Below, piece by piece: positions 1,935 through 19,859 of a stretch of 64,000 nt of DNA. The notes under the pieces were generated by a model that saw nothing but the letters and a program-made list of their open reading frames with translations, was not told the origin of the DNA and searched no databases. Positions within the stretch are counted from its first letter, which is position 1. Each line of letters opens with the position of its first letter. Both the position numbers and the translations under genes were made by a program. Origin of the DNA: Aquimarina sp. Aq78 (GTDB lineage Bacteria > Bacteroidota > Bacteroidia > Flavobacteriales > Flavobacteriaceae); the NCBI RefSeq assembly GCF_900299525.1, contig NZ_OMKA01000031.1, positions 1-64,000 on the forward strand, written 5' to 3'.

Positions 1935-2681
1935 TTATTTTTTTAGTAGTTGGTTTTCCTTTTCTAACAGCTCTATTCTCTTATTCATTTGGATAATATA
2001 TAAGGTAAGTTCTTCTATTTTTTGAAGAAGCTTAGCATCCATTTCTCCTAAGAAAATTCCATTTTCTTGTACTTCTGAAGCGCTGGGAATATCCTGTAAA
2101 TGTCCCTTTTGGTTGATATGATTTTCAACTTCTTGAAGAGTAGGTAATTTGTAATCGTCATAGAAAACAAAATCAGACCAAGTCCCAGCTTCTACAACCA
2201 TTTCTCTTGCTCCTATGGATCCTTCAACAGCTAATCTATGCGATCCGGTATTTGTTGTTCCTATTCCTACATTTCCTGTTTCTCCATCTATAGTCATTCT
2301 AGTGATGCCGCAACAGGTATTAGTTCCTCCTATTTGAAAATTCATCCTAGCTGGATAATTGCCAGGTGTAAAGGCACCTGTTGTAGTAACCGCTATTCGT
2401 CCTATTTGTACGTTTGATTGTCCATCAAATCCAGAATAAATGATTGTCCCTAATAGTCTATTTGCCGGAGTAGATGTTGGTGTAGTTGAATTTCCTCCCG
2501 TATTTAAAAAATACAAATGAGGGTGTCCTCCATTAAATAAACCTTGTCTAGTTGTAATATTTAAAGATGGATATTTATTGTTTAACTGATTGATGTATAT
2601 TTTATCATCAACAGTTTGCTGACTGTAGCAAGTCGTTTGAATTGTTATGATTAGTAACAAAATGTTTAATATTCTTTTCAT
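1935..2681 (-). CDS. secreted fibre-like protein, paralogue 3 of 3
   Basis: A 248-residue protein with a signal peptide (residues 1-21, ending CYSQ). The middle is beta-rich and ends in a GNVGIGTTNTGSHRLAVEG motif typical of Bacteroidota tail-fibre or adhesin-like proteins. The C-terminal about 90 residues are a conserved module shared with the next two upstream genes: WSDFVFYDDYKLPTL, GHLQDIPSASEV, GEMDAKLLQKIEELTLY, then a short coiled coil ending in LLKK. In trimeric fibres such a tail would form the oligomerising stalk. There is no T9SS sorting domain, so the export endpoint is unclear. It sits 29 bases after the 2711-3511 gene and one base before the M43 protease, which suggests one transcript. 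Function is not known. Confidence 0.75.
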   Translation of the reverse strand: MKRILNILLLIITIQTTCYSQQTVDDKIYINQLNNKYPSLNITTRQGLFNGGHPHLYFLNTGGNSTTPTSTPANRLLGTIIYSGFDGQSNVQIGRIAVTTTGAFTPGNYPARMNFQIGGTNTCCGITRMTIDGETGNVGIGTTNTGSHRLAVEGSIGAREMVVEAGTWSDFVFYDDYKLPTLQEVENHINQKGHLQDIPSASEVQENGIFLGEMDAKLLQKIEELTLYIIQMNKRIELLEKENQLLKK

Positions 2682-2710
2682 CTGTTATTTTATTAAGTTT
2701 AATTAGACTT

Positions 2711-3511
2711 TTATTTTTTAGATTCTATTAGCTTTTCAAGCTGATCTAATCTTTCCTCAATAGATTTTAATCTTTTGATTTCTTTTTCTTGTTGAATAGT
2801 GTAAAGCGTTAATTCTTCTACTTTCTGAAGAAGTTTTGCATTCATCTCTCCTATCGAAATTCCTTTTTTTAATACTTCTTTTTCTGAAGGAATATCTTTT
2901 AGATGTCCGTTTGTTTTTATATGCTGTTCAACTTCTTCTAAACTCGGTAGTATATAATCAGATTTGAATACAAAATCTGACCAAACATTGGGCTTTACTA
3001 CAACTTCTTTAGTTTTTGTGACTCCATCAATGGCTAAATTTCCTCCAGAAACTCCAAGAGTGTTATTATCTCTTAAAATAAGCCTCATGTCATAGTCGGT
3101 AGTAGGATCATTAGAGAAATCAAAATAAGGAACTCCATTACCTCTTAGTTCAATAGAAGCCCCTTGATCTGTATTTATAATGGCTCCGGTATTTCCCCAA
3201 CTAATGCTTTGCCCTGTAGATAGTTTATTACTCATTTTAATATCACCTCCTTCAAAAGAAAGCAAGTCGTTATTCCTAAGTATTAACCTCATATCATAGT
3301 CGGTAGTAGGGTCATTAGAGAAATCAAAATAAGGAACTCCATTGCCTCTTAGTTCAACAGAAGCACCTTGGTCTGTATTTAGAACAGCTCCTGTGCTTCC
3401 CCATTTGATTTGCTTAGTCACAGTAAGTTTGCCATTAATAATTTGATCTTGAGCCGTAAGGTTAAGTACAGCTATAAAAAAACATAGAATTAAACTTGAT
3501 AATTTTTTCAT
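2711..3511 (-). CDS. secreted fibre-like protein with internal duplication, paralogue 2 of 3
   Basis: A 266-residue protein with a signal peptide (1-20, NLTA-Q). Residues about 34-85 are repeated at about 102-153, exactly 68 residues later; both copies contain TDQGAS.ELRGNGVPYFDF and DYDMRLILR. The C-terminal 95 residues carry the module shared by this gene cluster (WSDFVFKSDYILPSL, GHLKDIPSEKEV, GEMNAKLLQKVEELTLY) and a charged coiled coil to the end. No enzyme motif is visible. It lies between two paralogues (32 bases after one, 29 before the other). A structural surface or fibre role is inferred from the repeat and coiled-coil layout only. Confidence 0.75.
   Translation of the reverse strand: MKKLSSLILCFFIAVLNLTAQDQIINGKLTVTKQIKWGSTGAVLNTDQGASVELRGNGVPYFDFSNDPTTDYDMRLILRNNDLLSFEGGDIKMSNKLSTGQSISWGNTGAIINTDQGASIELRGNGVPYFDFSNDPTTDYDMRLILRDNNTLGVSGGNLAIDGVTKTKEVVVKPNVWSDFVFKSDYILPSLEEVEQHIKTNGHLKDIPSEKEVLKKGISIGEMNAKLLQKVEELTLYTIQQEKEIKRLKSIEERLDQLEKLIESKK
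3065..3412 (-). repeat. tandem internal repeat, 204-bp period
   Basis: Two in-frame copies of a beta-strand unit inside the 2711-3511 gene, 68 codons apart. DNA identity is high, with mainly third-base changes, indicating a fairly recent or homogenised duplication. Confidence 0.8.
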
Positions 3512-3543
3512 CGTTTTGGTTTTAAGAGTTATCGAATGAATTT

Positions 3544-4563
3544 TTATTTGCTAAGATTTTCGACTTTATTTTGAAGAGTAGATATCGTTTTTCTTAAAGT
3601 TTTGAGCTCTTCATCCTGTTGAATTGTATAGAGCATTAATTCCTCTATCTTTTCGAGTAATTTTGCTTGCATATTCCCTACTTGAATACCGTTCTCTAAC
3701 ACTTCTTTTTCACTCGGTATATTGGGAAGATGCCCTTGAGTTTTAATGTGTTTTTTTACTTCATTTAAAGAAGGTAATTTGTAATCAGAACGAAATACAT
3801 AGTCAGGCCATGGTGAAGCTTCTACTACAACCTCTTTGGCTCTAATATTACCATTTACAGCAAGTTTATAACCTCTGGTATTGGTAGTTCCTATACCAAC
3901 AGTTCCATCAGTATCGATAATCCTTAAACGTTCGACTCCTTTGGTTTTTAAAATAAGATCGTTATTATAAGAAGAAAATGCATTTGTAGTTGTGTATACA
4001 TCTTTGTTAAAAATAAACTTTGGCATATCGGTATAGATATGTGCCCAACTACTGTTAAGAGGCCCAACATCTATATATCCAAAAGTTCCATTAACTCGTA
4101 ATGCTCCTCCTGCAAGATTTCCTCTAATGCTTCCATTAATATGGAGTCTAGTTTGAGGATTAGAAATACCGATACCCATATATCCGTTTTCATCTTTAAT
4201 CCTTAAACGTTCAGTTCCTTTGGTTTTTAAGATTAGATCATTGTTGTAAGAAGAAAATGCATTTGTAATAGTGTATACATCTTTATTAAAAATAAACTTT
4301 GGCATATCGGTATAGATATGCGCCCAACTACTGTTGAGAGGACCAACATCAATGTACCCATAGGTTCCGTTAATGCGCAGTGCTCCTCCTGCTAGGTTTC
4401 CTCTGATGTCTCCGTTGATATGTAGTTTGGTTGCTGGATTAGTCACTCCAACGCCTACATTACCACTTAGGCTGTAAATGGTGTTCTGATTGTCGTAATT
4501 GTGTTGTGCATGCAAACACATGGTGATACAGAGTATCACCAATGAAGATAGTACTTTTTTCAT
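3544..4563 (-). CDS. secreted fibre-like protein with 93-residue repeats, paralogue 1 of 3
   Basis: A 339-residue protein with a signal peptide (1-19, CLHA-Q). Two nearly identical 93-residue units begin at about residues 36 and 129, each with a G.G..NP..[KR]LHING motif, a RGNLAGGALR segment and WAHIYTDMPKFIFNKDVY. A third unit starts at about 222 (VGIGTTNTRGYKLAVNG) and runs straight into the shared C-terminal module (PWPDYVFRSDYKLPSL, GHLPNIPSEKEV, LLEKIEELMLY) and coiled coil. The exact period suggests stacked fibre repeats. It is the first gene of the cluster, so the promoter should lie in 4564-4690, but no good TAnnTTTG element is visible on that strand. Confidence 0.75.
   Translation of the reverse strand: MKKVLSSLVILCITMCLHAQHNYDNQNTIYSLSGNVGVGVTNPATKLHINGDIRGNLAGGALRINGTYGYIDVGPLNSSWAHIYTDMPKFIFNKDVYTITNAFSSYNNDLILKTKGTERLRIKDENGYMGIGISNPQTRLHINGSIRGNLAGGALRVNGTFGYIDVGPLNSSWAHIYTDMPKFIFNKDVYTTTNAFSSYNNDLILKTKGVERLRIIDTDGTVGIGTTNTRGYKLAVNGNIRAKEVVVEASPWPDYVFRSDYKLPSLNEVKKHIKTQGHLPNIPSEKEVLENGIQVGNMQAKLLEKIEELMLYTIQQDEELKTLRKTISTLQNKVENLSK
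3901..4458 (-). repeat. two tandem 279-bp coding repeats
   Basis: In-frame repeat with an exact 93-codon period inside the 3544-4563 gene; long blocks are identical at DNA level, so copy number could vary by recombination. Confidence 0.8.
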
Positions 4564-8460: not shown

Positions 8461-10668
8461 TTAGTTTTTAATAAATTTAGTGGTTAATAATCCTTTGCTA
8501 GATTGAAGATGAAGAATGTACTGGCCAACAGGTAATCCTGTAACATCAATCAAAACAGAATTAAGACCCATTAATATATCATTTGTACCTTTTGGAATTG
8601 GAGCAGCAAAAGGATCTTCTCGTATAAGTTCTTCTCTAGGGTCAACGATAAATTTAACGACTACTTTCTTTACAATTTCTCCAGAAAGTCTTAGTATCGT
8701 TACAGTTGCATTTCCTGTAGTTGTAGGATCTTTTGGGGTTATTGCTAAATAATTGCTTGCTGGATTTGGCGAAAGTATAAAGTGATTATCAAAAGCACTT
8801 GTTTTGGTAGGTTTACAACTAGTATTGACGTTACATGTAGAATAACCTAATGTAAATCGTATATAGCTGTTAATCTCGTTTAAAAAAGATACCGAATTAA
8901 CACAAACAAAATTTAGTTTTGGGCATCCATCTAAGTAAAGACGTCTGGCATGATGAACTACGCCAGAGAAATGCTGGTAACTTTGGTAAAAAGAGTGATT
9001 TCCTGTTAGATATGCTTCTCTTAAATTTGGATTGTTGCTAATGTTTAATTTATTTACAGATTTACAATTTCTAATATCAATTTTGGATATTAAGTTTCTA
9101 CTAACATCCACAGTTTCTAAATTAGTATTTGATGTAATATCTAATGTGGTTATTTGGTTATTAGACAATTGTAGTACTTGTAAATTTATACTGCTGTTTA
9201 GAGATATTTGCAATAATTGATTGTTATCAAGAGTAAGATAGCGTAATAGAACTTTATTTCTAAGGTCAATAGAGATTAGTTTATTATTGGCTAGATCTAT
9301 CGTGTTTAATTGATCATTCTTATTAAGGTTTGCAATAGTAATTTGATTGTTTTTAAGAAGAAGAACCTTTAGATTTGTAAAATGCTCAATCCCGGTAATA
9401 TCAGTGATATTTCTATTTTCAAGATTGATATGAGTAACTTTTTCTGCTTCGTCTTCAGAGATTTCATTATCACTGTCAATATCATACTTTGATACGAGTC
9501 CAGCTTTAAAATTTGGATCATTAAAATTAATGATTTTAGAAGTAGGAGCTAAGCTACAATCACTACTGATAACACAATTATAACCTAATGCATTAACTCT
9601 ATTTTGTATGTAGGCAGTATCAGAATAGTATTTGTGTAAGCAAATAAATTCTAGTTTTGGACATTTTTCGACCTTAATATATTTACTTAGGTAACGATGT
9701 GTTAAAAACATGGTTTTTAACTCGCTATTATCGTTCACATCTAGATATACAATTTTACAATTTCTTGCATCTAGCCTAGTTATCTTGTTTTTTGAACAGT
9801 TTAAATTGACCAGATTAACATTTTGAGAAAGATTTATTTCTGTCAAAGCATTAGAACTTATATCTAATCTTTCTAGATTTGGATTCCCAGTAAGATCTAT
9901 AGATGCTAATTTGTTTTTCTCAACGTTTATACGTTTCAATGTTGAGGTTACTGGCAGATTTATATTAGTTAGTAAACTATTTCGGACATCTAAATGGGTA
10001 AGCACTGTATTTTTAGAAGCATCTATAGATGTTAGTAAGTTGTTACCGATATTTAACTCATCTAATTTTGTGTTTTTAGAGACATCTAATGTTGTTAATT
10101 GATTTCCCCATACATATAACCTTGTTAAATTTAGGTTTTTAGTAATACTTAATTCTACCAACTGGTTGCTCCATGCATGAAGTATTGATAACCTAGCGTT
10201 ATGATCTATGTTAAGTCTTTTAAATTTATTACTTATTACTTTTAGTTCAAATAACTCCACATTTTTAGATACATCCAGTTGTGCTAACTGGTTATTATTA
10301 GCATCTATTCGTTCTAATTGTGTACATGTGGATATATTTAGATTAGTCAACTGATTTTGGCTAACATCCAAGTATTGTAGTTTTGTGTTTTTTGTTAGAT
10401 TTAAAGAGGTTACCTTATTCTTAGGAATAGTAAGGTGTTTTAGATTTATAAAGTGCTCTATTCCGGTAAGATTTTCAATATTCTTATTTACAGCTTTTAT
10501 GGATACAGCTTTTTCTGCTTCTTGCTTACTTATATTTACGTCATTATTGGTATTTATTGATGATGCCAGTAAAGCATTTTTAAAATTAGCATCGGGAATA
10601 TGAATATTTTGAGCATGAGAGGTTAGGGTAAGACATAGTAGTATACCCAAAAAGATAATTTTTTTCAT
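8461..10668 (-). CDS. large secreted leucine-rich-repeat protein with T9SS sorting domain
   Basis: The 735-residue protein has a signal peptide (1-19, SHA-Q) and two homologous blocks. Each begins with a PDANF/NDPNF motif and an EF-hand-like loop (NTNNDVNISKQE about 39-50, degenerate; DIDSDNEISEDE about 396-407, canonical), then a TGIEHF cap and 21-residue LRRs of the L..L.V..NQLT.LDVS form (about 11 units in block 1, 6 in block 2). Each block ends in a cysteine-containing C[PS]KL.F[IV]C segment. Residues about 628-735 are a T9SS sorting domain (LSPNPASNYLAI) with an insertion. Such LRRs usually bind proteins or glycans at the surface. Its promoter lies beside paired regulator boxes at 10843-10880. 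Confidence 0.88.
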   Translation of the reverse strand: MKKIIFLGILLCLTLTSHAQNIHIPDANFKNALLASSINTNNDVNISKQEAEKAVSIKAVNKNIENLTGIEHFINLKHLTIPKNKVTSLNLTKNTKLQYLDVSQNQLTNLNISTCTQLERIDANNNQLAQLDVSKNVELFELKVISNKFKRLNIDHNARLSILHAWSNQLVELSITKNLNLTRLYVWGNQLTTLDVSKNTKLDELNIGNNLLTSIDASKNTVLTHLDVRNSLLTNINLPVTSTLKRINVEKNKLASIDLTGNPNLERLDISSNALTEINLSQNVNLVNLNCSKNKITRLDARNCKIVYLDVNDNSELKTMFLTHRYLSKYIKVEKCPKLEFICLHKYYSDTAYIQNRVNALGYNCVISSDCSLAPTSKIINFNDPNFKAGLVSKYDIDSDNEISEDEAEKVTHINLENRNITDITGIEHFTNLKVLLLKNNQITIANLNKNDQLNTIDLANNKLISIDLRNKVLLRYLTLDNNQLLQISLNSSINLQVLQLSNNQITTLDITSNTNLETVDVSRNLISKIDIRNCKSVNKLNISNNPNLREAYLTGNHSFYQSYQHFSGVVHHARRLYLDGCPKLNFVCVNSVSFLNEINSYIRFTLGYSTCNVNTSCKPTKTSAFDNHFILSPNPASNYLAITPKDPTTTGNATVTILRLSGEIVKKVVVKFIVDPREELIREDPFAAPIPKGTNDILMGLNSVLIDVTGLPVGQYILHLQSSKGLLTTKFIKN

Positions 10669-10795: not shown

Positions 10796-10827
10796 CAAAG
10801 ATAAAGGCGAAAACTACACTATAACAA
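10796..10827 (-). promoter_or_regulatory. promoter of the LRR gene
   Basis: Read on the minus strand, TTG (10827-10825) and TATCTTTG (10803-10796) are 21 bases apart, matching TTG/TAnnTTTG. The predicted start of transcription is near 10790, giving a leader of about 120 bases. Confidence 0.6.
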
Positions 10828-10842
10828 GAGGAGTAACTTAGG

Positions 10843-10880
10843 ATTTATAAATCTTGACAGGTATATTTATAAATCTTAAC
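10843..10880. promoter_or_regulatory. paired 16-bp direct-repeat boxes, likely AraC-type operator
   Basis: ATTTATAAATCTTGAC (10843-10858) and ATTTATAAATCTTAAC (10865-10880) are direct repeats with a 22-bp period, two helical turns, as AraC-type regulators usually recognise. They start 15 bases upstream of the -33 element of the LRR promoter. The rest of the 345-base divergent region (10669-11013) shows no gene. A third copy lies at 12779. Confidence 0.6.
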
Positions 10881-11013
10881 CATTGTTTTTAGCTTCAAAA
10901 TGCTTTTTATCAGAGTGTTTGTTTTTTCAAGAAGATTTTATGATTTGTTATTAAAATTATACTCTATTTATATGGTTATCCCTTATATTGTTAACAACTT
11001 TTAACTAGGCATT

Positions 11014-12741
11014 TTGAATATAAAACTGAAGAGCATCTATCGTATTATTTTAATTTTTATAAGCTTGATCTTTCTCCCGAACAAAGGAGTAGGTATGATA
11101 ACAAAAAACAAGATTAGTGAAAAGCAATATTCAGTTTCAGATTCTTTAAATCATAAAACATTTGATGAATTACGATCGCTCTTTATTAAACACTATAAAG
11201 ATTCAGTTTTTATAAAAAAATTATCGAATACATATCTTACCAGAGCAAAGAAAGACAAGGATAGTATTGAGATAGCAAATGGATATCAAATATTCTTTGA
11301 AATGAATATAAATAATCCAAAAGTGGCTTTGGCATACACAGATTCTATGATTGATGTTACCAAAGGCGTAAAAGATGAGTTTTATCCAGCAAGGGGCTAT
11401 CTTTTAAAAGGCTATCTTTTGCAAAAACTAGAACGGTACAATGAAGCTTTAACCTCGTATTTGATTTCAAAAAAACATGCAGAGATCAATAAGAATATTG
11501 GTCATATTATTGCTATAACACATAATATTGCAATACTTAAGACCATCTTAGGAAAAGATGAAGAATCTTTAGAAATCTATAAAAAAAACTTAGACCTCTT
11601 ATCGACTCAGGATACTATTAATAAATTCAGATCACATTATATAGCTACTCTCTGTAAGCTATCGGATAGTTATAATTTATTTAAAAAATATGATACTGCG
11701 CATTTCTATTTGAAAAAAGGGATTACATCTACTCTATCAGGAGATATTCCGCATTTTTATTCTGAGTTACTTTCATCTTATGGGATTAATAGTTATTATA
11801 GAAAAGAATATAGTACAGCACGGGATAGCTTAAATAAATCTCTTTCTCTATCCAAAAAAAGCCCCTATACAAATGTACTTGTTACCTATTTATATTTAGG
11901 AAAAACACTTTTACAACTAGAAAAGGAAGAAGAAGCTATTGGATATTTAAAAAAAATAGACTCTGCGGTACATGTTTCTAACTATATCTTAGAAACCCGA
12001 GAAGCATTTACGTTGCTCATAGATCATTATAAAAAGGAAGACGATAAAGCGAATCAATTAAGAATCATGGAAAAACTGATAAAACTAGATAGTGGTTTTT
12101 CTGTAAAGTATAAAAAGTTACATATAGATATTGAAAAAAAGTATGATAATGTACAACTTATTAAAGACAAAGAAATATTAATAGATAGCATCAAAAATCA
12201 TAGTAAAACAACCATATATCAGTTATGGGCTTTTGGAGGAGTAATCATTGTATTGATAAGTCTAGGATATTTTTATTATTATAAAAAAAGAAAGAAAAAC
12301 TATGAAAAAGTATACCAAGAGAAATTAATACATGCAGAACATCTAAATAAAAAGAAAACACAGAAAACAAAAGATGTTGAACTAGCACCAGAATTAAGAG
12401 ACGATATTTTAAAAAACTTAGAAGAGTTTGAAAAAAATGAAGTCTTTTTAAAAAACGATTTAACATTATCTATAGTTGCCAAAAAACTAAAAACCAATTC
12501 GACATACTTATCCAGGATTATCAATATGGATAAGCAAAAAAACTTCGCAAATTATATTAATGATTTACGTGTTGAATATTGTATAGAGCAAATAAAAAAT
12601 GATAAAAAATTTAGACATTATTCTGTTACATCTATGGCAAAAGAGGTAGGATTTAATAATATTCAGTCTTTTGTTAAAGCATTTTATAAAAAAAATGGTT
12701 GTAATCCTGCTGAATACATAAAAGAGTATGGTGGTGAGTGA
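11014..12741 (+). CDS. membrane-anchored TPR transcriptional regulator with AraC-type HTH
   Basis: The 575-residue protein has a signal-anchor-like N-terminus (residues 7-21), a region of tetratricopeptide-like helices (about 85-390), one membrane segment (404-422), a basic linker, and a C-terminal AraC/XylS HTH domain (about 483-572; SIVAKKLKTNSTYLSRIIN and MAKEVGFNNIQSFVKAFYKK). The TPR part would lie outside and the HTH inside, a one-component design common in Bacteroidota. The start is the TTG at 11014 (or ATT at 11011); the first ATG, at 11095, would remove the hydrophobic N-terminus. It is divergent from the LRR gene and 132 bases before the GG-leader peptide gene; identical boxes flank it on both sides. 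Likely targets are those two genes (inference). Confidence 0.85.
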   Translation: MNIKLKSIYRIILIFISLIFLPNKGVGMITKNKISEKQYSVSDSLNHKTFDELRSLFIKHYKDSVFIKKLSNTYLTRAKKDKDSIEIANGYQIFFEMNINNPKVALAYTDSMIDVTKGVKDEFYPARGYLLKGYLLQKLERYNEALTSYLISKKHAEINKNIGHIIAITHNIAILKTILGKDEESLEIYKKNLDLLSTQDTINKFRSHYIATLCKLSDSYNLFKKYDTAHFYLKKGITSTLSGDIPHFYSELLSSYGINSYYRKEYSTARDSLNKSLSLSKKSPYTNVLVTYLYLGKTLLQLEKEEEAIGYLKKIDSAVHVSNYILETREAFTLLIDHYKKEDDKANQLRIMEKLIKLDSGFSVKYKKLHIDIEKKYDNVQLIKDKEILIDSIKNHSKTTIYQLWAFGGVIIVLISLGYFYYYKKRKKNYEKVYQEKLIHAEHLNKKKTQKTKDVELAPELRDDILKNLEEFEKNEVFLKNDLTLSIVAKKLKTNSTYLSRIINMDKQKNFANYINDLRVEYCIEQIKNDKKFRHYSVTSMAKEVGFNNIQSFVKAFYKKNGCNPAEYIKEYGGE

Positions 12742-12778
12742 GTTATGGGGCTTCAATGCTTGATAAATACCACTAAAT

Positions 12779-12794
12779 ATTTATAAATCTTACC
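12779..12794. promoter_or_regulatory. third copy of the 16-bp box, upstream of the RiPP-like gene
   Basis: ATTTATAAATCTTACC matches the two boxes at 10843-10880 in 14-15 of 16 positions. It lies 80 bases before the start codon of the GG-leader peptide gene. A weak -7-like TACATTTA follows at 12837-12844. Confidence 0.55.
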
Positions 12795-12873
12795 CAGAAC
12801 ATAAAGGGATATGTCTAACAATTAGTGTTTGTTAGTTACATTTACATTATAACAAAGTTCAAATTAACTCATC

Positions 12874-13053
12874 ATGAAAACGAATAAAAAAGTAAAACTC
12901 GAATTAAAAAAAATTAATGTAACCAAACTTACCGATTCTAATATCGCCAGAATAAAGGGAGGAAATAAGGAAGACTTTATTAGAGTTGACGGTACAGTTG
13001 GTAGTTTAATATCTCGTATTATAAATGGCGTGAATCATTCATGTAATAGATAA
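12874..13053 (+). CDS. GG-leader RiPP (class I lanthipeptide-like) precursor peptide
   Basis: A 59-codon gene starting with ATG at 12874 and ending with TAA. The first 30 residues match the Bacteroidota natural-product leader: a lysine-rich start, KLELKKINVTKL, then DSNIARIKGG, the double-glycine cleavage site at 29-30. The predicted 29-residue core starts NKEDFIRVDG and ends NHSCNR, with Thr41, Ser44, Ser48, Ser56 and one Cys57, so at most one thioether ring could form. No lanthionine synthetase, radical-SAM enzyme or C39 transporter is in the window, so it is an orphan precursor here. The box at 12779 suggests control by the TPR-AraC regulator just upstream. It could instead be an unmodified GG-leader pheromone or bacteriocin. 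Confidence 0.75.
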   Translation: MKTNKKVKLELKKINVTKLTDSNIARIKGGNKEDFIRVDGTVGSLISRIINGVNHSCNR

Positions 13054-13094: not shown

Positions 13095-13177
13095 AAAAAC
13101 CTTCTTTGACTATTGAAACTTCTTTGATTAAAACTTACGATCAGGATGATAAGCTTCTAGATTCAAAGAAGGTTTTT
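13095..13177 (-). terminator. long-armed terminator overlapping the end of the hydroxyproline operon
   Basis: Inverted repeat of 15 bases: TCAAAGAAGGTTTTT (13163-13177) and AAAAACCTTCTTTGA (13095-13109). The first arm in transcript order lies inside the last codons of the FAD dehydrogenase gene; the second is followed by T-rich RNA. An extra partial copy of the arm lies between them. Confidence 0.5.
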
Positions 13178-14375
13178 GATCAGAAATAATTTCTGAAACC
13201 AGTTTCCCTGTAGAGGTTCCCATAGTCCAGCCCATCATAGCATGCCCTGTAGCAATAGTAAGATTGTTACAAGTATTAGATTTACCGATATATGGTAACC
13301 CATCTGGAGAAACAGGCCTAAGGCCAGATGTAGCTGCCTCTTTTTCTGCATTAGAAAGTTTAATATCGGGATAGTATCGCTGTGTGGCGTTTGCGATAGT
13401 TTCAACTCTTACCTTATTAATCTTATGGTTAATACCCGCTATTTCCATAGTACCGGCAAATCTGGTAAATCCCTGCATTGGGGTTACTGCAATTTTAGCT
13501 TCAGTTAGTATAGCCGGCATGGTTATTCCTAAATCTCTTTCAGAATTTATACGGTATCCTTTTCCGGCTTCTAGTAATAGTTTGATTCCTAGTTTTTTAC
13601 TTAACAAATTTGACCATGATCCTGCCGCTAATACAAACTCATCTGCTGTGTATGATGTATTCTTAGTATGTATCGAAGTAATTTTATTGTTCTGTATACT
13701 AATATCTTCTACCTTTTTATTTTTGTGAATCGTTACCCCCGAAGCTTCAAGGAAAGCTTTCATTTCATCCATAAAGGTTTGTGGGGTGGTATGCCAATCA
13801 CATTCATACAATACTGCTCCTTTTGCTTGCAATTGTACATTGGGTTCCATTTGTTTTAATTCGTCAAATGAAAGCTCTTTTACGGGCAATCCTTCTTTGG
13901 TTGCCATCTTACCAACATGAATTTCTTCTTCGAGCATTTTTTCGGTTTGACAGATCATTAAAAGTCCCTTTTTTTCTAACTGAAACGAAAAATTTTCATC
14001 AGATCTGATTTCAGAATACAAATCTCTACCTAATACTGCAATATCTTTAATGGCAGCAATACCTTGATTTACATTTTTTACCGAGCAAGACTTGTTAAAT
14101 GCCCATGTCCAACGTAAAAAATCTGAATTGAGACGAGGCTTTATAAATAATGGGCTAGTGGGGTTAAACATCCATTTTAGTCCTTTTTTCATTACACCAG
14201 GTGCCGCAAGAGGGATAATATGACTTGGAGAAAGATAGCCCGCATTAACGTAAGAAGCACCAGAATCCATTGCAGATTGATCTATTATAGTAACATGATG
14301 TCCTTCTTTATGTAAATAATATGCAGAACATAATCCTATGATTCCGCCTCCTATGATAATAACTTCTTTACTCAT
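13128..14375 (-). CDS. FAD-dependent D-amino-acid dehydrogenase, probable cis-4-hydroxy-D-proline dehydrogenase
   Basis: The protein is a DadA/DAO-family flavoenzyme of 415 residues from the ATG at 14375 (an upstream in-frame GTG at 14387 is less likely). The FAD-binding motif IIIGGGIIGLCSAYYLH starts at residue 6. DAGS-like DSGASYVNAG and the C-terminal TSGLRPVSPDGLPYIG with GHAMMGWTMG are family signatures. DadA-type enzymes oxidise D-amino acids to imino acids. Next to a hydroxyproline epimerase, a DapA-type deaminase and a semialdehyde dehydrogenase, it most likely oxidises cis-4-hydroxy-D-proline to 1-pyrroline-4-hydroxy-2-carboxylate. It is the last gene of the operon, 80 bases after the epimerase. 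Confidence 0.85.
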   Translation of the reverse strand: MSKEVIIIGGGIIGLCSAYYLHKEGHHVTIIDQSAMDSGASYVNAGYLSPSHIIPLAAPGVMKKGLKWMFNPTSPLFIKPRLNSDFLRWTWAFNKSCSVKNVNQGIAAIKDIAVLGRDLYSEIRSDENFSFQLEKKGLLMICQTEKMLEEEIHVGKMATKEGLPVKELSFDELKQMEPNVQLQAKGAVLYECDWHTTPQTFMDEMKAFLEASGVTIHKNKKVEDISIQNNKITSIHTKNTSYTADEFVLAAGSWSNLLSKKLGIKLLLEAGKGYRINSERDLGITMPAILTEAKIAVTPMQGFTRFAGTMEIAGINHKINKVRVETIANATQRYYPDIKLSNAEKEAATSGLRPVSPDGLPYIGKSNTCNNLTIATGHAMMGWTMGTSTGKLVSEIISDQKPSLNLEAYHPDRKF

Positions 14376-14455
14376 AATTGTATACACTTAGACTAGCTTA
14401 GCGTGGTATTCTGTTATGTTTACTAAGTTTTTTATTATGTTTTATTTAGAATTGA

Positions 14456-15466
14456 CTAAATAACCTGAAACCCATGTGCATAGGGATCATCTTCATCATC
14501 AATAATGATAGTGTTGTATCCATAAACTTTTGCCCATCCTTGAATACTTGGAATGATAGCTTTTATGTTACCTAGTTCTGTTTCTTCTTCGACTCTACCT
14601 ATGAATGTACTTCCAATAAAACTTTCATGAACAAATTCTTCTCCTTGTTGTAGTTTTCCTTTAGCATATAATTGTGCTATTCTTGCAGAGGTTCCTGTTC
14701 CGCAAGGAGAACGGTCAATAGCTTTATCTCCATAAAAAACGGCATTTCTACCCGACGAATCTGGGTTGATAGGATCTCCTGTCCAAAGCATATGACTTAC
14801 ATCTCTGATCGTATCATTTTCTGGGTGGATAAATGCGTTGGGGTATTTTTTGTTAATACGTTCCCGAACCACTTGAGAGTATTGGATTAGCTTACTTGCA
14901 GTAAAATCATGAACCCCGCTAAAGTTTTTTTGAGGATCTACAATAGCATAAAAATTTCCACCATAGGCAACATCAAAAACGAGTTCTCCCAATTCTGGGC
15001 ATTCTATAGTTAAACCCTCTGCTGCCAGATATGATTTTACATTTTTGAGTTTTACCCAATCTACTTTTTTATTTGTTTGCTGGTATTCTATTTCTACCAG
15101 TCCAGCCGGAGCTTCCATTCTAATTTTCCCTGGGGTTTTGGGTTGTATTAAACCTTCTTCTATGGCTATGGTGATGGTTCCAATAGTACCATGTCCACAC
15201 ATAGGCAGACATCCAGACGTTTCTATAAATAGGATAGAAAAATCATTATCGGGGTGGTGTGGTTCGAATAAAAAACTGCCACTCATCATATCGTGCCCTC
15301 GAGGCTCATACATTAATCCTTTTCTTATCCAATCATATGTTGTAAGAAAATGCTGACGTTTTTCGCTCATCGTTTTTCCAATTAGATCAGGTCTGCCCGT
15401 CGTAACAACCCTCACTGGGTTTCCGCAAGTATGAGCATCGATACATTTGAAAGTGGTTCTAGCCAT
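14456..15466 (-). CDS. 4-hydroxyproline 2-epimerase (proline racemase family)
   Basis: The 336-residue protein belongs to the proline racemase family. Both catalytic cysteines are present: Cys90 in LPMCGHGTIG and Cys255 in DRSPCGTGTSARIAQL. Two cysteines separate racemases/epimerases from the trans-3-hydroxyproline dehydratases, in which the first is replaced. In this operon the substrate is most likely trans-4-hydroxy-L-proline, converted to cis-4-hydroxy-D-proline. The start lies inside the end of the DUF885 gene (8-base overlap), which points to translational coupling. Proline racemase activity is the alternative but fits the neighbours less well. Confidence 0.9.
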   Translation of the reverse strand: MARTTFKCIDAHTCGNPVRVVTTGRPDLIGKTMSEKRQHFLTTYDWIRKGLMYEPRGHDMMSGSFLFEPHHPDNDFSILFIETSGCLPMCGHGTIGTITIAIEEGLIQPKTPGKIRMEAPAGLVEIEYQQTNKKVDWVKLKNVKSYLAAEGLTIECPELGELVFDVAYGGNFYAIVDPQKNFSGVHDFTASKLIQYSQVVRERINKKYPNAFIHPENDTIRDVSHMLWTGDPINPDSSGRNAVFYGDKAIDRSPCGTGTSARIAQLYAKGKLQQGEEFVHESFIGSTFIGRVEEETELGNIKAIIPSIQGWAKVYGYNTIIIDDEDDPYAHGFQVI

Positions 15467-17195
15467 TTTTTGTTTTTTCGATATAAGTGTTAATTCTGTT
15501 TTCTAAAATTGAAAGCGTAACAGTACCCTGCTCAAGGACTATTTCATGAAATTCGCGAATGTCAAATTTACTTCCCAATGCAGTTTCAGCTTTTTTACGC
15601 AGTTCTCTAATTTTTAATTCACCAATTTTATATGACAAAGCCTGACCTGGCCATGAAATATATCGATCGGTTTCTGTATGTATTTCATGTAATGATAATG
15701 CTGTATTCGAAGACATAAAATCGATAACTTGTTCACGTGTCCATCCTTTGGCATGAATCCCTGTATCTACTACTAAGCGACATGCACGCCACATTTCATA
15801 GGTTAGTTTCCCAAATTGCTCATAAGGTGTAGTATACATCCCCATTTCCTCTGCCAGAAACTCAGAATATAATCCCCAGCCTTCTCCATATGCAGATAGA
15901 TATAAATCTTTTCTAAACTGTGGTATACTATCACCTAATTCGTTGTTTAAACTGCCTTGCAAATGATGCCCAGGTACAGCTTCATGTACAGTAAGCGATG
16001 GTAGTGTGTATAATGTTCTGCTAGGCAAATCATACGTGTTCACCCAATAATACCCCGGGTCTGTGCTATTAGCTTCTGTCCCTACGTATCGACCACTAGT
16101 GTATTTTGGAGCAATTGCATCTGGTACAGGGGCTACTCCATATGGTTTTCTGGGTAATGTCTTAAAAAAACGAGGCAGCTGTTCATCTGCTCGCTTAGCC
16201 ATATCTCGGGCAATCATAAGCAGTTCTTCAGGCGTTTTTGCATAGAATTGCTCATCGGTACGAAGGAATTTAAAAAAATCTGCAAAACTACCCTGGAAAT
16301 TAAGCTCTTTTATGATGATCTCCATTTGAGCTTTTATTCTGGCAACTTCTTTTAATCCGATATTATGAATCTCGTCTGCAGTATATGTAGTACTCGTGGT
16401 ATAAAAATTTATCTTGTTTTGGTAGTAAGCCTTGCCGTTTGGAGTTTGAGATACACCAATGGCTGTTCTTGTCTTAGGTAAATATTCGGTTTCAAAGAAT
16501 TTTTTTATTCTTTTAAACTGTGGAATAACCTTGTTTTTAATTATTTCTTTCGCGGCATTACGTACCGAATCCTTTTGAGTTTGAGTTAAAATCTCTGGTA
16601 AACTTTTAAAAGGAGAATAAAAATAACTGTTTTTAACACTATCAACGATATGGTCATTATATGTTGATTCATATCCTTTAAAAATGACTCTTGGTTGAGA
16701 AACTCCTTTTTCAAGACCTCCCCGTAAGTTTATAAAATGCTGATCTACAAATTCTGGGATTGCATTAAGTTTGTTCAGATATTTTTTGACCTGCTTGTAA
16801 TTGGCAAATGGCCTAACCATATAATTGAGATTACTATGAAATCCAGAGTCGGATAATAAAGGATTAAGATACCCCTCGAACTCATAAAAATCAACAGTTC
16901 TCTGCAAAGTAAATTTTAATAACTCAAGAGATATTTTATCAGTCTCCTTGAGTAGTGTAGCATCAATACCATTTAGTTCTTCTATCTTTTTTTGTGCAAA
17001 ATCAGCTTCTTTTTTGAAATACTCTTTGGTAAAGAGACCTAGAGGGTATACATCTTCATCATAACCTTTTCTTTCTTCAATTTCTGCAATAATTTGATGT
17101 AATGAAGCTGATGGGTCTTTCTCTTTCTCTTTTTGTTCATTACAACTAAAACAGAAAAGCAATATTAGAATTGCTATGATTTTAAAAAATTTCAT
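15459..17195 (-). CDS. DUF885-family lipoprotein, putative metallopeptidase
   Basis: The 578-residue protein has a lipoprotein signal (LLFCFSC, lipid Cys18) and the DUF885 fold. The zinc-site-like motif HEAVPGHHLQ is at 404-413, and YGEGWGLYSE at 436-445 supplies a further acidic ligand candidate. Family members include predicted carboxypeptidase- or dipeptidase-like enzymes; few are characterised. It is embedded in the hydroxyproline operon (41 bases after the aldehyde dehydrogenase, 8-base overlap with the epimerase). A role in releasing hydroxyproline from short peptides at the envelope is therefore plausible, but inferred from context only. Confidence 0.85.
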   Translation of the reverse strand: MKFFKIIAILILLFCFSCNEQKEKEKDPSASLHQIIAEIEERKGYDEDVYPLGLFTKEYFKKEADFAQKKIEELNGIDATLLKETDKISLELLKFTLQRTVDFYEFEGYLNPLLSDSGFHSNLNYMVRPFANYKQVKKYLNKLNAIPEFVDQHFINLRGGLEKGVSQPRVIFKGYESTYNDHIVDSVKNSYFYSPFKSLPEILTQTQKDSVRNAAKEIIKNKVIPQFKRIKKFFETEYLPKTRTAIGVSQTPNGKAYYQNKINFYTTSTTYTADEIHNIGLKEVARIKAQMEIIIKELNFQGSFADFFKFLRTDEQFYAKTPEELLMIARDMAKRADEQLPRFFKTLPRKPYGVAPVPDAIAPKYTSGRYVGTEANSTDPGYYWVNTYDLPSRTLYTLPSLTVHEAVPGHHLQGSLNNELGDSIPQFRKDLYLSAYGEGWGLYSEFLAEEMGMYTTPYEQFGKLTYEMWRACRLVVDTGIHAKGWTREQVIDFMSSNTALSLHEIHTETDRYISWPGQALSYKIGELKIRELRKKAETALGSKFDIREFHEIVLEQGTVTLSILENRINTYIEKTKNG

Positions 17196-17236
17196 TCTAA
17201 ACAGGTATTAATTTTTTTAGTATTGATTATAAAAAA

Positions 17237-18820
17237 TCAGATTTTAGAATCTGTATGCTTACCATCAACCAATCTTGAAATCCGTAAAGAGTTTTCATTC
17301 TTAAGTTCGTTTGGTAATAAATTATTTGGCCAACTTTGATAGCTAAATGGACGTACCCAACGTTTAATAGAATGAATACCAACTGCTGTAAATCTACTAT
17401 CTGTTGAGGCAGGATATGGACCACCATGTAACATAGAAGGGCATACTTCTACTCCTGTAGGAACACCATTAAAGATGATTCTTCCTACCCTGTTTTGTAA
17501 TGCATCAATAACTGTATTGTATTGTAGCGCTTCTTCGTTTTCTGCTATAATGGTTCCTGTAAGTTGTCCTTCTAAGGTATTGATTATAGTTTCTAATTGT
17601 TCAACATCTTTACATTGCACAACCATAGAGAATGGCCCAAATACTTCTTGATGTAAGGTTGTATTTTCTAAAAATGTTTTTCCTTCTACTGTGGTAACTG
17701 TTTGTCTTGCATAATTCACGGCAATATCACTATCAAGCTCTGCGGTGACAGATAATCCATTTTGTTGCAATGCATTTGTTTTGTTTCTTTCAAAATTTCC
17801 AATAATGTTGGGATGCAACATACATGAAGGTTCAATTTTTACAATTTCTTCAGAAAGTGCTGTTATAAAATTAGTTAAGGCTTCTCCTTTAATACCGATA
17901 AGCAAACCAGGGTTTGTACAAAACTGTCCGGCTCCTACTGTTATTGATTTTGCATAGGTTTTAGCTAAATCGACTCCTTTGGTAATTGTTGCTTCGGGTA
18001 ACAGGACTACAGGGTTTATACTTCCCATTTCTGCAAATACCGGAATTGGTTCTGGTCGTTTTGAAGCCAAATCAAATAGTGCTCTACCTCCTCTAATGCT
18101 TCCTGTAAAACCAACTGCTTTTACTGCAGGATGTTCTACTAATTGAACACCTACTTCAATTCCTGAACTATTAAGATTAGAGAATACTCCATTTGGCATC
18201 CCTGTTTTTATAGCAGCTTTGATAATTGCAGCAGATACTAATTCTCCAGTTCCTGCATGCATTGGGTGTGATTTTACAATCACAGGGCATCCTGCAGCAA
18301 ATGCGGCAGCAGTATCACCTCCAGCTGTAGAATAGGCTAAAGGAAAATTACTTGCTCCAAAAACAACAACAGGTCCTAAAGGAACCAGCATTTTACGAAT
18401 ATCTTGTTTAGGAATAGGGCTACGATCTAAATCGGCAGTATCTATAGAAGCTTCTACCCATGAACCCTCGGCTACCAGATCGGCAAAAGTCCTTAATTGC
18501 CCTATAGTTCTACCTCGTTCACCTTTTGCTCTTCCTTCTGGTAAACCAGTTTCTGACCTATATGTTTCTATTAGAAGATCGTCTAAAGCCAGAATCTCAT
18601 CAGCAATTGCATTTAGAAATTCTGCCTTTTTAGCACCAGAAACCTTTCTGAAAATTTCAAAAGCTTCTGAAGCTAATGATACGGATTTTTCGATTTCTTC
18701 TTCTGAAGCTTCAAAAAATGTATGTTCATTTTCAATATTTAGCTTAGGGTTAAAAGTTGTGTAGGTTTTATTTCCTATAGCCGAGAGCTGATTTCCTATA
18801 TAGTTTTTACCTGTTATCAT
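17237..18820 (-). CDS. 2-oxoglutarate semialdehyde (2,5-dioxovalerate) dehydrogenase
   Basis: From the ATG at 18820 the protein has 527 residues, the usual length of the KGSADH branch of aldehyde dehydrogenases, and starts MITGKNYIGNQ. Catalytic residues are visible: Asn158 in FGASNFP, Lys183 in VIVKSHP, Glu264 in FAEMGSINP and Cys301 in GAGQFCTNPG. It oxidises 2-oxoglutarate semialdehyde to 2-oxoglutarate, the last step of hydroxyproline degradation and also of some sugar-acid pathways. It lies between the deaminase and the DUF885 gene. An in-frame upstream start at 18853 would add 11 residues without family support. Confidence 0.9.
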   Translation of the reverse strand: MITGKNYIGNQLSAIGNKTYTTFNPKLNIENEHTFFEASEEEIEKSVSLASEAFEIFRKVSGAKKAEFLNAIADEILALDDLLIETYRSETGLPEGRAKGERGRTIGQLRTFADLVAEGSWVEASIDTADLDRSPIPKQDIRKMLVPLGPVVVFGASNFPLAYSTAGGDTAAAFAAGCPVIVKSHPMHAGTGELVSAAIIKAAIKTGMPNGVFSNLNSSGIEVGVQLVEHPAVKAVGFTGSIRGGRALFDLASKRPEPIPVFAEMGSINPVVLLPEATITKGVDLAKTYAKSITVGAGQFCTNPGLLIGIKGEALTNFITALSEEIVKIEPSCMLHPNIIGNFERNKTNALQQNGLSVTAELDSDIAVNYARQTVTTVEGKTFLENTTLHQEVFGPFSMVVQCKDVEQLETIINTLEGQLTGTIIAENEEALQYNTVIDALQNRVGRIIFNGVPTGVEVCPSMLHGGPYPASTDSRFTAVGIHSIKRWVRPFSYQSWPNNLLPNELKNENSLRISRLVDGKHTDSKI

Positions 18821-18909
18821 AATTCTAAATGATTTAATGTGAAAATAGATCAATTTCTAATGAAAGAATGATGCCATCTCTATTATTTTTGATTACATCA
18901 TTTTAGAGA

Positions 18910-19836
18910 TTAATCTATTAATTCAATGTTTTTGTATTCGGGTAATTGTGGCCTTGTTTTTAAACCAGTTTCAATAATTTCCAATACTTTTTTACGTTCA
19001 TCTCCAACAAGTGGTAACCTGGGAGGACGTACATGTTCTGTGCCGATTCCGGTAGCTACTTCTGCTAGTTTTATATTTTGCACTAATTTAGGGTTTATGT
19101 CTAACTCCAACAAGGGTAAAAACCAACGATAAATAGCAATAGCTTCTTTAATTCGACCTGCTTTTTGAAGTTCATAAATAGCTACAGTTTCTTCTGGGAA
19201 AGCATCTACTAATCCAGCAACCCAACCATCAGCACCCATTAGTAAACTTTCGAGAGCTAATGTGTCTACTCCACTCAGAATTTTTAACCTGTTGCCAAAG
19301 CGATTTTTAATTCGTGTTATATTAGAAATATCTCTTGTAGATTCTTTTACTGCCTGTATATTATCCAGTGCTAATAGCTCTTCGAACATATCCAAAGAGA
19401 CTTCTATCTTATAGTCGACAGGATTGTTGTAAATCATTATGGGTAGATCAGTACTTTTAGCTACCTCTTTAAAGTAAACTACAGTTTCTCGATCTCCTGC
19501 TTTATATCGCATTGGTGGGAGCATCATCAAACCACTAGCTCCATCTTCTTTTGCTTTTTTTGCAGCTTCAATAGCACCTTTTGTAGTTTGTTCTGCAATA
19601 TTAATAATAACTGGAACTTTGTTTTTAACGATATCAACTGTGGTTCTAACCAAAATTCTTTTTTCGTCATCACTCAATGTACTTGCCTCACCCAAAGTCC
19701 CGCCTAGTATAATTCCGTGTACTCCAGCTTCAAGTTGTGCATTGATATTAATTTCAAACATTTTTAAGTCTAGTGTATCCTCTTTGGTGAATTTTGTAGT
19801 CACTGCAGGCATTACACCTTTCCAATCTATTACCAT
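18910..19836 (-). CDS. DapA-family lyase, probable 1-pyrroline-4-hydroxy-2-carboxylate deaminase
   Basis: The 308-residue protein is a DHDPS/N-acetylneuraminate-lyase-type TIM barrel. The GGTLGEASTLSDDE substrate loop is at about 45-58, Tyr136 is in IMIYNNP, and the Schiff-base Lys164 is in IQAVKEST. In hydroxyproline operons this family deaminates 1-pyrroline-4-hydroxy-2-carboxylate to 2-oxoglutarate semialdehyde, which fits the neighbouring dehydrogenases. It is the first gene of the operon. ATG at 19836 is preferred over TTG at 19854, because a TATCTTTG promoter element lies at 19859-19852 and would overlap the longer reading. Confidence 0.87.
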   Translation of the reverse strand: MVIDWKGVMPAVTTKFTKEDTLDLKMFEININAQLEAGVHGIILGGTLGEASTLSDDEKRILVRTTVDIVKNKVPVIINIAEQTTKGAIEAAKKAKEDGASGLMMLPPMRYKAGDRETVVYFKEVAKSTDLPIMIYNNPVDYKIEVSLDMFEELLALDNIQAVKESTRDISNITRIKNRFGNRLKILSGVDTLALESLLMGADGWVAGLVDAFPEETVAIYELQKAGRIKEAIAIYRWFLPLLELDINPKLVQNIKLAEVATGIGTEHVRPPRLPLVGDERKKVLEIIETGLKTRPQLPEYKNIELID

Positions 19837-19851
19837 ATTTAAAATTTTATT

Positions 19852-19859
19852 CAAAGATA
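19852..19859 (-). promoter_or_regulatory. -7 element of the hydroxyproline operon
   Basis: TATCTTTG on the minus strand matches TAnnTTTG, 16 bases before the ATG of the first operon gene. No clear -33 TTG is seen, as expected for a promoter that depends on an activator such as the divergent AraC protein (inference). Confidence 0.4.

Follow-up and report, generated by a model that had tools for sequence, protein, structure and literature searches.

A repeated box as the predicted operator of a membrane TPR-AraC regulator paired with a GG-leader peptide in Aquimarina

Which protein reads a box that stands before both an LRR gene and a small peptide gene, on either side of a gene encoding a TPR-AraC regulator? 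The question is raised by a 64,000-nucleotide stretch of Aquimarina sp. Aq78 DNA (hereafter the window), in which an earlier note had described three copies of one 16-bp box. Two of these, box 1 (ATTTATAAATCTTGAC, 10843..10858, + strand) and box 2 (ATTTATAAATCTTAAC, 10865..10880, + strand), match the consensus given there exactly and lie 22 bp apart, bearing out the claim of a direct repeat with a 22-bp period before the LRR gene. Box 3 (ATTTATAAATCTTACC, 12779..12794, + strand), which precedes the peptide gene, ends in ACC rather than (A/G)AC, a single mismatch, and the stated consensus holds for the first two copies only. The AraC-type regulator gene does sit between boxes 1/2 and box 3, as had been described.

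The LRR gene (8461..10668, − strand) encodes a surface or secreted protein of 735 amino acids (Pfam LRR_4, E 3.2e-25) and is the predicted target of the paired box. Its orthologues in six related genomes are 81-92% identical. The T9SS label that this protein had received is weak, with a TIGR04183 score of 14 bits vs a cut-off of 23, and its assignment as an internalin or secretion effector was rejected, the NCBIfam matches being generic LRR matches far below cut-off. As for the regulator (11014..12741, + strand; 575 amino acids if translation starts at TTG), Pfam (TPR_12, HTH_18), hydropathy, and an AlphaFold2 model with a mean pLDDT of 85 delineate a hydrophobic N-terminus (residues 1-27), a TPR domain (~42-341), a membrane helix (~404-424), and an HTH region (~459-570), the latter being a C-terminal double HTH of the AraC/XylS type (HTH_18, E 7.2e-11, 42.7 bits, cut-off 33.6). 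Within positions 11014-11028 the window has a CTG where orthologues have their ATG start; the predicted gene must start at one of two codons, this CTG (11026) or a TTG lying 12 bp before it. The peptide gene (12874..13053, + strand) encodes 59 amino acids with a GG-type leader, MKTNKKVKLELKKINVTKLTDSNIARIKGG, that carries the motif LxLxKx5L, followed by a core with one Cys and four Ser/Thr. Its score against the class I lanthipeptide leader model NF038153 is 16.1 bits, below the cut-off of 22. Elsewhere in the window, positions 13128-19854 hold genes for a D-amino acid dehydrogenase and a 4-hydroxyproline epimerase, whose neighbors by eye resemble the rest of a hydroxyproline pathway. Positions 1935-4563 encode three secreted proteins that by eye share a similar C-terminal tail (SDFVF..YKLPSL..EV..HI...GHLPDIPS), which resembles a chaperone-of-endosialidase tail.

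Both candidate target genes are preceded by a −7 element of the form TAnnTTTG/A. In the LRR promoter (TATCTTTG, 10796..10803, − strand), the nearer box center lies 44 bp upstream of this element and the farther one 66 bp upstream, while the putative −7 element of the peptide promoter (TACATTTA, 12837..12844, + strand) lies 53 bp from the center of box 3. Where else in the genome does such a box occur? The box signal resides in exact copies and in their placement. Allowing up to three mismatches, we found the pattern 11 times in the window, which is no enrichment (shuffle mean 8.49, with 11 reached in 22 of 100 shuffles), and the 14-mer with one mismatch is at background level in the whole genome (51 vs 46 for a reversed control). 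The exact ATTTATAAATCTTNNC gave six rows, corresponding to five sites, in the 5.97-Mb Aquimarina genome, vs none for the reversed control. The genome search that the earlier note had proposed, with few hits expected of a meaningful box, thus returned exact boxes at only four places, all of which adjoin a TPR-AraC regulator gene. Besides the pair before the LRR gene and the box before the window peptide, these are a perfect palindrome (C9:5544-5565) between a paralogous TPR-AraC gene, whose product is 51% identical to the window regulator, and another GG-leader peptide gene, and a box (C18:354241) flanked by the gene of a more distant TPR-AraC regulator and by a large divergent gene (at least 2011 amino acids), 43 bp from a relaxed −7 match, TATATTCG. 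This large gene had been taken by eye to encode an RHS protein, a label that was dropped when Pfam gave only a sub-threshold TSP_3 match.

The arrangement is conserved in relatives. A scan of contigs from named genomes returned eight loci, comprising seven full orthologues of the regulator and one HTH-only match; the full orthologues come from Aquimarina genomes and one MAG, and range from 97% identity in A. macrocephali down to 69% in A. sediminis. The 10-bp core ATTTATAAAT before the peptide is intact in all 10 orthologous regulator-peptide gaps, and the paired box before the LRR gene is kept in 9 of 10 orthologous loci, so that aligning the locus in related genomes, another check proposed earlier, came out in favor of the box. 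A. sediminis has neither the LRR gene nor the paired box. In A. longa, the LRR gene is gone but the paired box persists, and no −7 element stands at 44 bp; in the MAG, the LRR gene is truncated and the −7 element at 44 bp is kept. The box spacings of 44 and 66 bp from the −7 element are found in all seven intact LRR genes shown, the window included.

The window contains one copy of a multi-paralog module, in which a regulator is followed by a box and then by a peptide with a GG-type leader and a hypervariable core. The peptide gene, which had been called an orphan, instead belongs to a large family of regulator-paired peptides. Among 15 long TPR-AraC proteins examined in the source genome, nine are encoded by genes followed, on the same strand, by a small gene of the GG type. 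More widely, a GG-type peptide lies beside 84 of 117 distinct regulators (72 by pattern and 12 by eye), these regulators being high-scoring matches to the window protein and not a random sample. Pairing is seen in 75/86 cases in Aquimarina, 9/30 in other genera of the family, and 0/1 at the order level, and a family-wide search found a regulator match at E ≤1e-40 in 30 of 149 genomes. Module peptides have conserved leaders and variable cores, and the strict leader motif LxLxKx5L is present in 24 of 46. At five loci, a gene for a prolyl oligopeptidase comes after that of the regulator or of its peptide (L159, L218, and L240, by Pfam; L215 and L238, by eye); its product could mature or destroy the peptide.

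The predicted operator cores in the regulator-peptide gaps share TTYnnRAA (ATTTATAAAT, ATTCATGAAT, TTTCCGGAAA, and others), and their flanks vary from clade to clade. Core and −7 motif were each defined independently of spacing. In 46 non-redundant modules, the distance from core center to −7 element is 52-54 bp in 20 and 43-44 bp in eight, 28 altogether, vs a mean of 0.27 at 52-54 bp in shuffles and a largest 3-bp bin of six in 500 shuffles. Both motifs are present in 32 of the modules, and 28 of these are phased; under the motifs used, the phased pair is absent from 18 modules, 14 of which have no match to one of the motifs. Outside Aquimarina, only two of seven non-redundant modules are phased. 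Held-out genomes provided 63 regulators, reduced to 34 less than 60% identical to the first set and to each other, of which 33 had enough sequence and 18 of those a peptide. Here the 52-54-bp spacing recurred in 10 of 18 modules, with no other spacing above two; the 43-44-bp class did not recur among these 18 single-box modules. The two classes are one helical turn apart; the boxes are phased with their promoters.

Paired boxes behave likewise and extend the set of candidate targets. The arrangement ATTTATAAAT-N12-ATTTATAAAT, which has the 22-bp period of the LRR promoter, was found in 24 of 66 Aquimarina genomes (48 places in total, vs 0 for the reversed control). In 37 distinct contexts read out of these 48 places, some of them orthologous to each other, a −7 match stands at 43-44 bp on one side of the pair in 32, the LRR promoter included. 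The genes on that side encode LRR proteins (also in G063, beside a 53%-identical regulator), several GG-leader peptides, lanA-like products (in A. atlantica, with LanC, and in G050), a sigma-70 region 2 protein, a NusG-family protein, and small proteins with no Pfam family. The NusG-family gene was seen behind paired boxes at L325 (Pfam), L079, and L331 (both by eye), and is possibly a capsule-type antiterminator. A pair of small proteins of no known family recurs behind paired boxes (L099, L167, L266, L286, L318, and others); the two at L099 had looked HTH-like by eye, but Pfam found no family for them. The lanthipeptide enzymes of the source genome (G000) are split over two loci, each beside a module: one with N and C parts of LanB directly upstream of the C16 module (C16:507149-510134), the other with LanC, HlyD, and a C39 transporter beside the C29 module (C29:53000-59678). 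Five of the eight upstream regions scanned in these two loci have a core at 44 or 52 bp, those of LanC, two peptides, and HlyD among them, and none was found at these distances for LanB, one peptide, or the C34 transporter.

Who, then, would read the box? We compared box flanks with regulator domains in 28 non-redundant modules chosen for showing a phased box, using Mantel and pair tests that only partly remove shared ancestry. Flank similarity correlates with HTH identity (r 0.51) more than with the TPR domain (0.34), and the partial correlations are 0.41 for HTH given TPR and 0.06 for TPR given HTH, which is what is expected if each regulator reads its neighboring box. Residues 549-552 and 555, which rank high as flank predictors, are situated where the second recognition helix begins (modeled at 550-561), and the best predictor, residue 564, lies just after that helix. 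The boxes are thus very probably operators, that is, predicted binding sites, of the adjacent TPR-AraC regulator. With a phased −7 element at both genes, few exact boxes in the genome, and conservation in relatives, the link that the earlier note drew between LRR gene, regulator, and peptide holds up, and the prediction that the LRR and peptide genes share a regulon is well supported.

We propose, with a probability of about 0.7, that the boxes are bound by a TPR-AraC one-component membrane sensor that would control the peptide and LRR promoters. Its TPR superhelix would lie outside the inner membrane, connected by one membrane helix to a cytoplasmic AraC-type HTH. At its own peptide promoter, the regulator would act from a single site ~53 bp upstream of the −7 element; an effector promoter, here that of the LRR gene, would be served by two sites with a 22-bp offset, of which the nearer is 44 bp upstream of the −7 element. 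The upstream, phased position of the boxes makes it likely that the regulator activates transcription.

What the sensor might sense is a separate matter. The TPR profile matches the peptide receptors of the Rap and NprR type (RapJ at 2.4e-10, RapF, RapI), but eukaryotic TPR proteins score better; in Foldseek, NprR comes 16th and Rap proteins appear from rank 25 onward, below designed TPRs and LGN. The resemblance to peptide receptors is unspecific. Core similarity of the peptides follows the TPR domain (partial correlation 0.42) over the HTH (0.13) in 229 related pairs, which are not independent, and in G020 and A. sediminis, where the core is replaced, the TPR domain is down to 70% identity, with the HTH still at 83-89%. 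We give even odds that the TPR domain has the peptide as its ligand, in which case the system would work by peptide autoinduction. Export of the GG-leader peptide by a C39 ABC transporter encoded elsewhere is plausible; the source genome encodes three C39 transporters, at distances from a module of ~0.5, 5, and 11 kb. The module family looks like a chemical-signaling system. In its fullest form, which we put forward tentatively and at somewhat less than even odds, the proposal is that Flavobacteriaceae, and above all Aquimarina, possess private multi-channel peptide signaling: each membrane TPR-AraC receptor would sense the neighboring polymorphic GG-leader peptide, read its own operator code (a common core with channel-specific flanks), and fire the promoters of the peptide and of effectors (LRR surface proteins, other GG peptides, lanthipeptide genes, NusG-like and ECF-sigma-like regulators) from helically phased sites.

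The alternative that survives best, a distinct possibility that we nevertheless consider somewhat doubtful, keeps the same operator and regulon and makes the peptide an output, not a signal: a class I lanthipeptide-type bacteriocin or a relative, with the TPR domain responding to something else, for example the state of the envelope, a protein partner, or a compound of foreign origin. The class I lanthipeptide leader model is indeed matched by 28 of 42 module peptides at E ≤0.1, and the split LanB gene upstream of one module, the LanC, HlyD, and C39 genes beside another, and the paired boxes before lanA-like genes in two genomes all fit such a role. However, Cys is absent from nine of 46 module cores and occurs once in 14; at least nine cores therefore cannot carry lanthionine. 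Around the window module, a Pfam scan and reading of the adjacent genes revealed no LanB, LanC, exporter, or modifying enzyme. That each regulator has its own polymorphic peptide beside it, with a core that tracks the TPR domain and not the HTH, also argues against a mere output.

Two further alternatives concern the box itself. It is improbable that the box is the site of another, unlinked DNA-binding protein acting at these promoters: a core common to all clades could be read by one protein, but the flanks vary by module and track the adjacent HTH after correction for the TPR domain. Still less probably, the box serves the gene upstream of it as a hairpin terminator or RNA element. Several boxes, those at C9 and C34 for example, form perfect inverted repeats ~40 bp past the regulator stop codon, yet boxes also stand before divergent genes where no gene ends (the LRR and GG2 promoters), palindromic symmetry in the window copies is poor outside the core, and a fixed distance to the −7 element is unexpected of a terminator. 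A palindrome-only score was tried and abandoned, most gaps not being separated from shuffles (19 of 72 beat nearly all of them); by this score, the window gap is unexceptional, being matched or exceeded by 12 of 60 shuffles. Chance repetition of an AT-rich word, suggested by the return to background once mismatches are allowed, is hardly credible given the exact copies (5 vs 0), the paired cores (48 vs 0), and the fixed spacing in both training and held-out sets.

How would sensing of the neighboring peptide by the regulator compare with known systems? Peptide signaling is well described in Gram-positive bacteria. In nisin-type autoinduction, a peptide made with a leader governs, by way of a LanRK two-component system, a set of genes to which its own belongs; the proposed module would do the same with a one-component membrane regulator in place of a histidine kinase and response regulator. 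The hybrid two-component sensors of Bacteroides, found beside polysaccharide loci, combine an outer sensor domain and an AraC-type DNA-binding end in one membrane protein, as the window regulator is predicted to do; the latter differs in having no kinase or receiver domain by Pfam and in being paired with peptides. In RRNPP systems (Rap-Phr, NprR-NprX, PlcR-PapR, and others), a TPR receptor gene adjoins a gene for a small exported-type peptide, an arrangement found here for the 84 of 117 regulators. According to passages of PMC10075063, RRNPP receptors are intracellular proteins of 250-500 amino acids, and the propeptide is exported by Sec or PptAB and re-imported. In contrast, the window receptor has 575 amino acids, a predicted topology with a membrane helix (404-424) after a TPR domain placed outside the inner membrane, and an AraC-type output, and the GG-type leader of the modules suggests C39 export rather than Sec/PptAB. 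Module peptides also resemble the class I lanthipeptide precursors of Bacteroidetes, which, in passages of PMC7268733, have an LxLxKx5L leader, a GG end, and a link to C39 proteases. They differ in that most have no adjacent LanB/LanC in the loci read and that some cores have no Cys. Those passages of PMC7268733 name no TPR-AraC regulator, "AraC" and "tetratricopeptide" having 0 occurrences in them. The nearest literature hint that we found is in passages of PMC10352776, where some Bacteroidales RiPP clusters contain TPR and HTH genes. In open-licence PMC articles, we found no description of TPR-AraC regulators with GG-leader peptides as partners, nor any such receptor-peptide-operator system in Bacteroidota.

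The larger finding is the predicted module family with its readable operator code. If this is right, one genome would have at least nine parallel channels, each combining receptor and peptide with a DNA operator that can be read, and cognate pairs and target genes would therefore be predictable from sequence. The code would supply a rule for regulon finding, based on core, flank, and distance to the −7 element, and may offer a regulatory handle on silent lanthipeptide-type genes.
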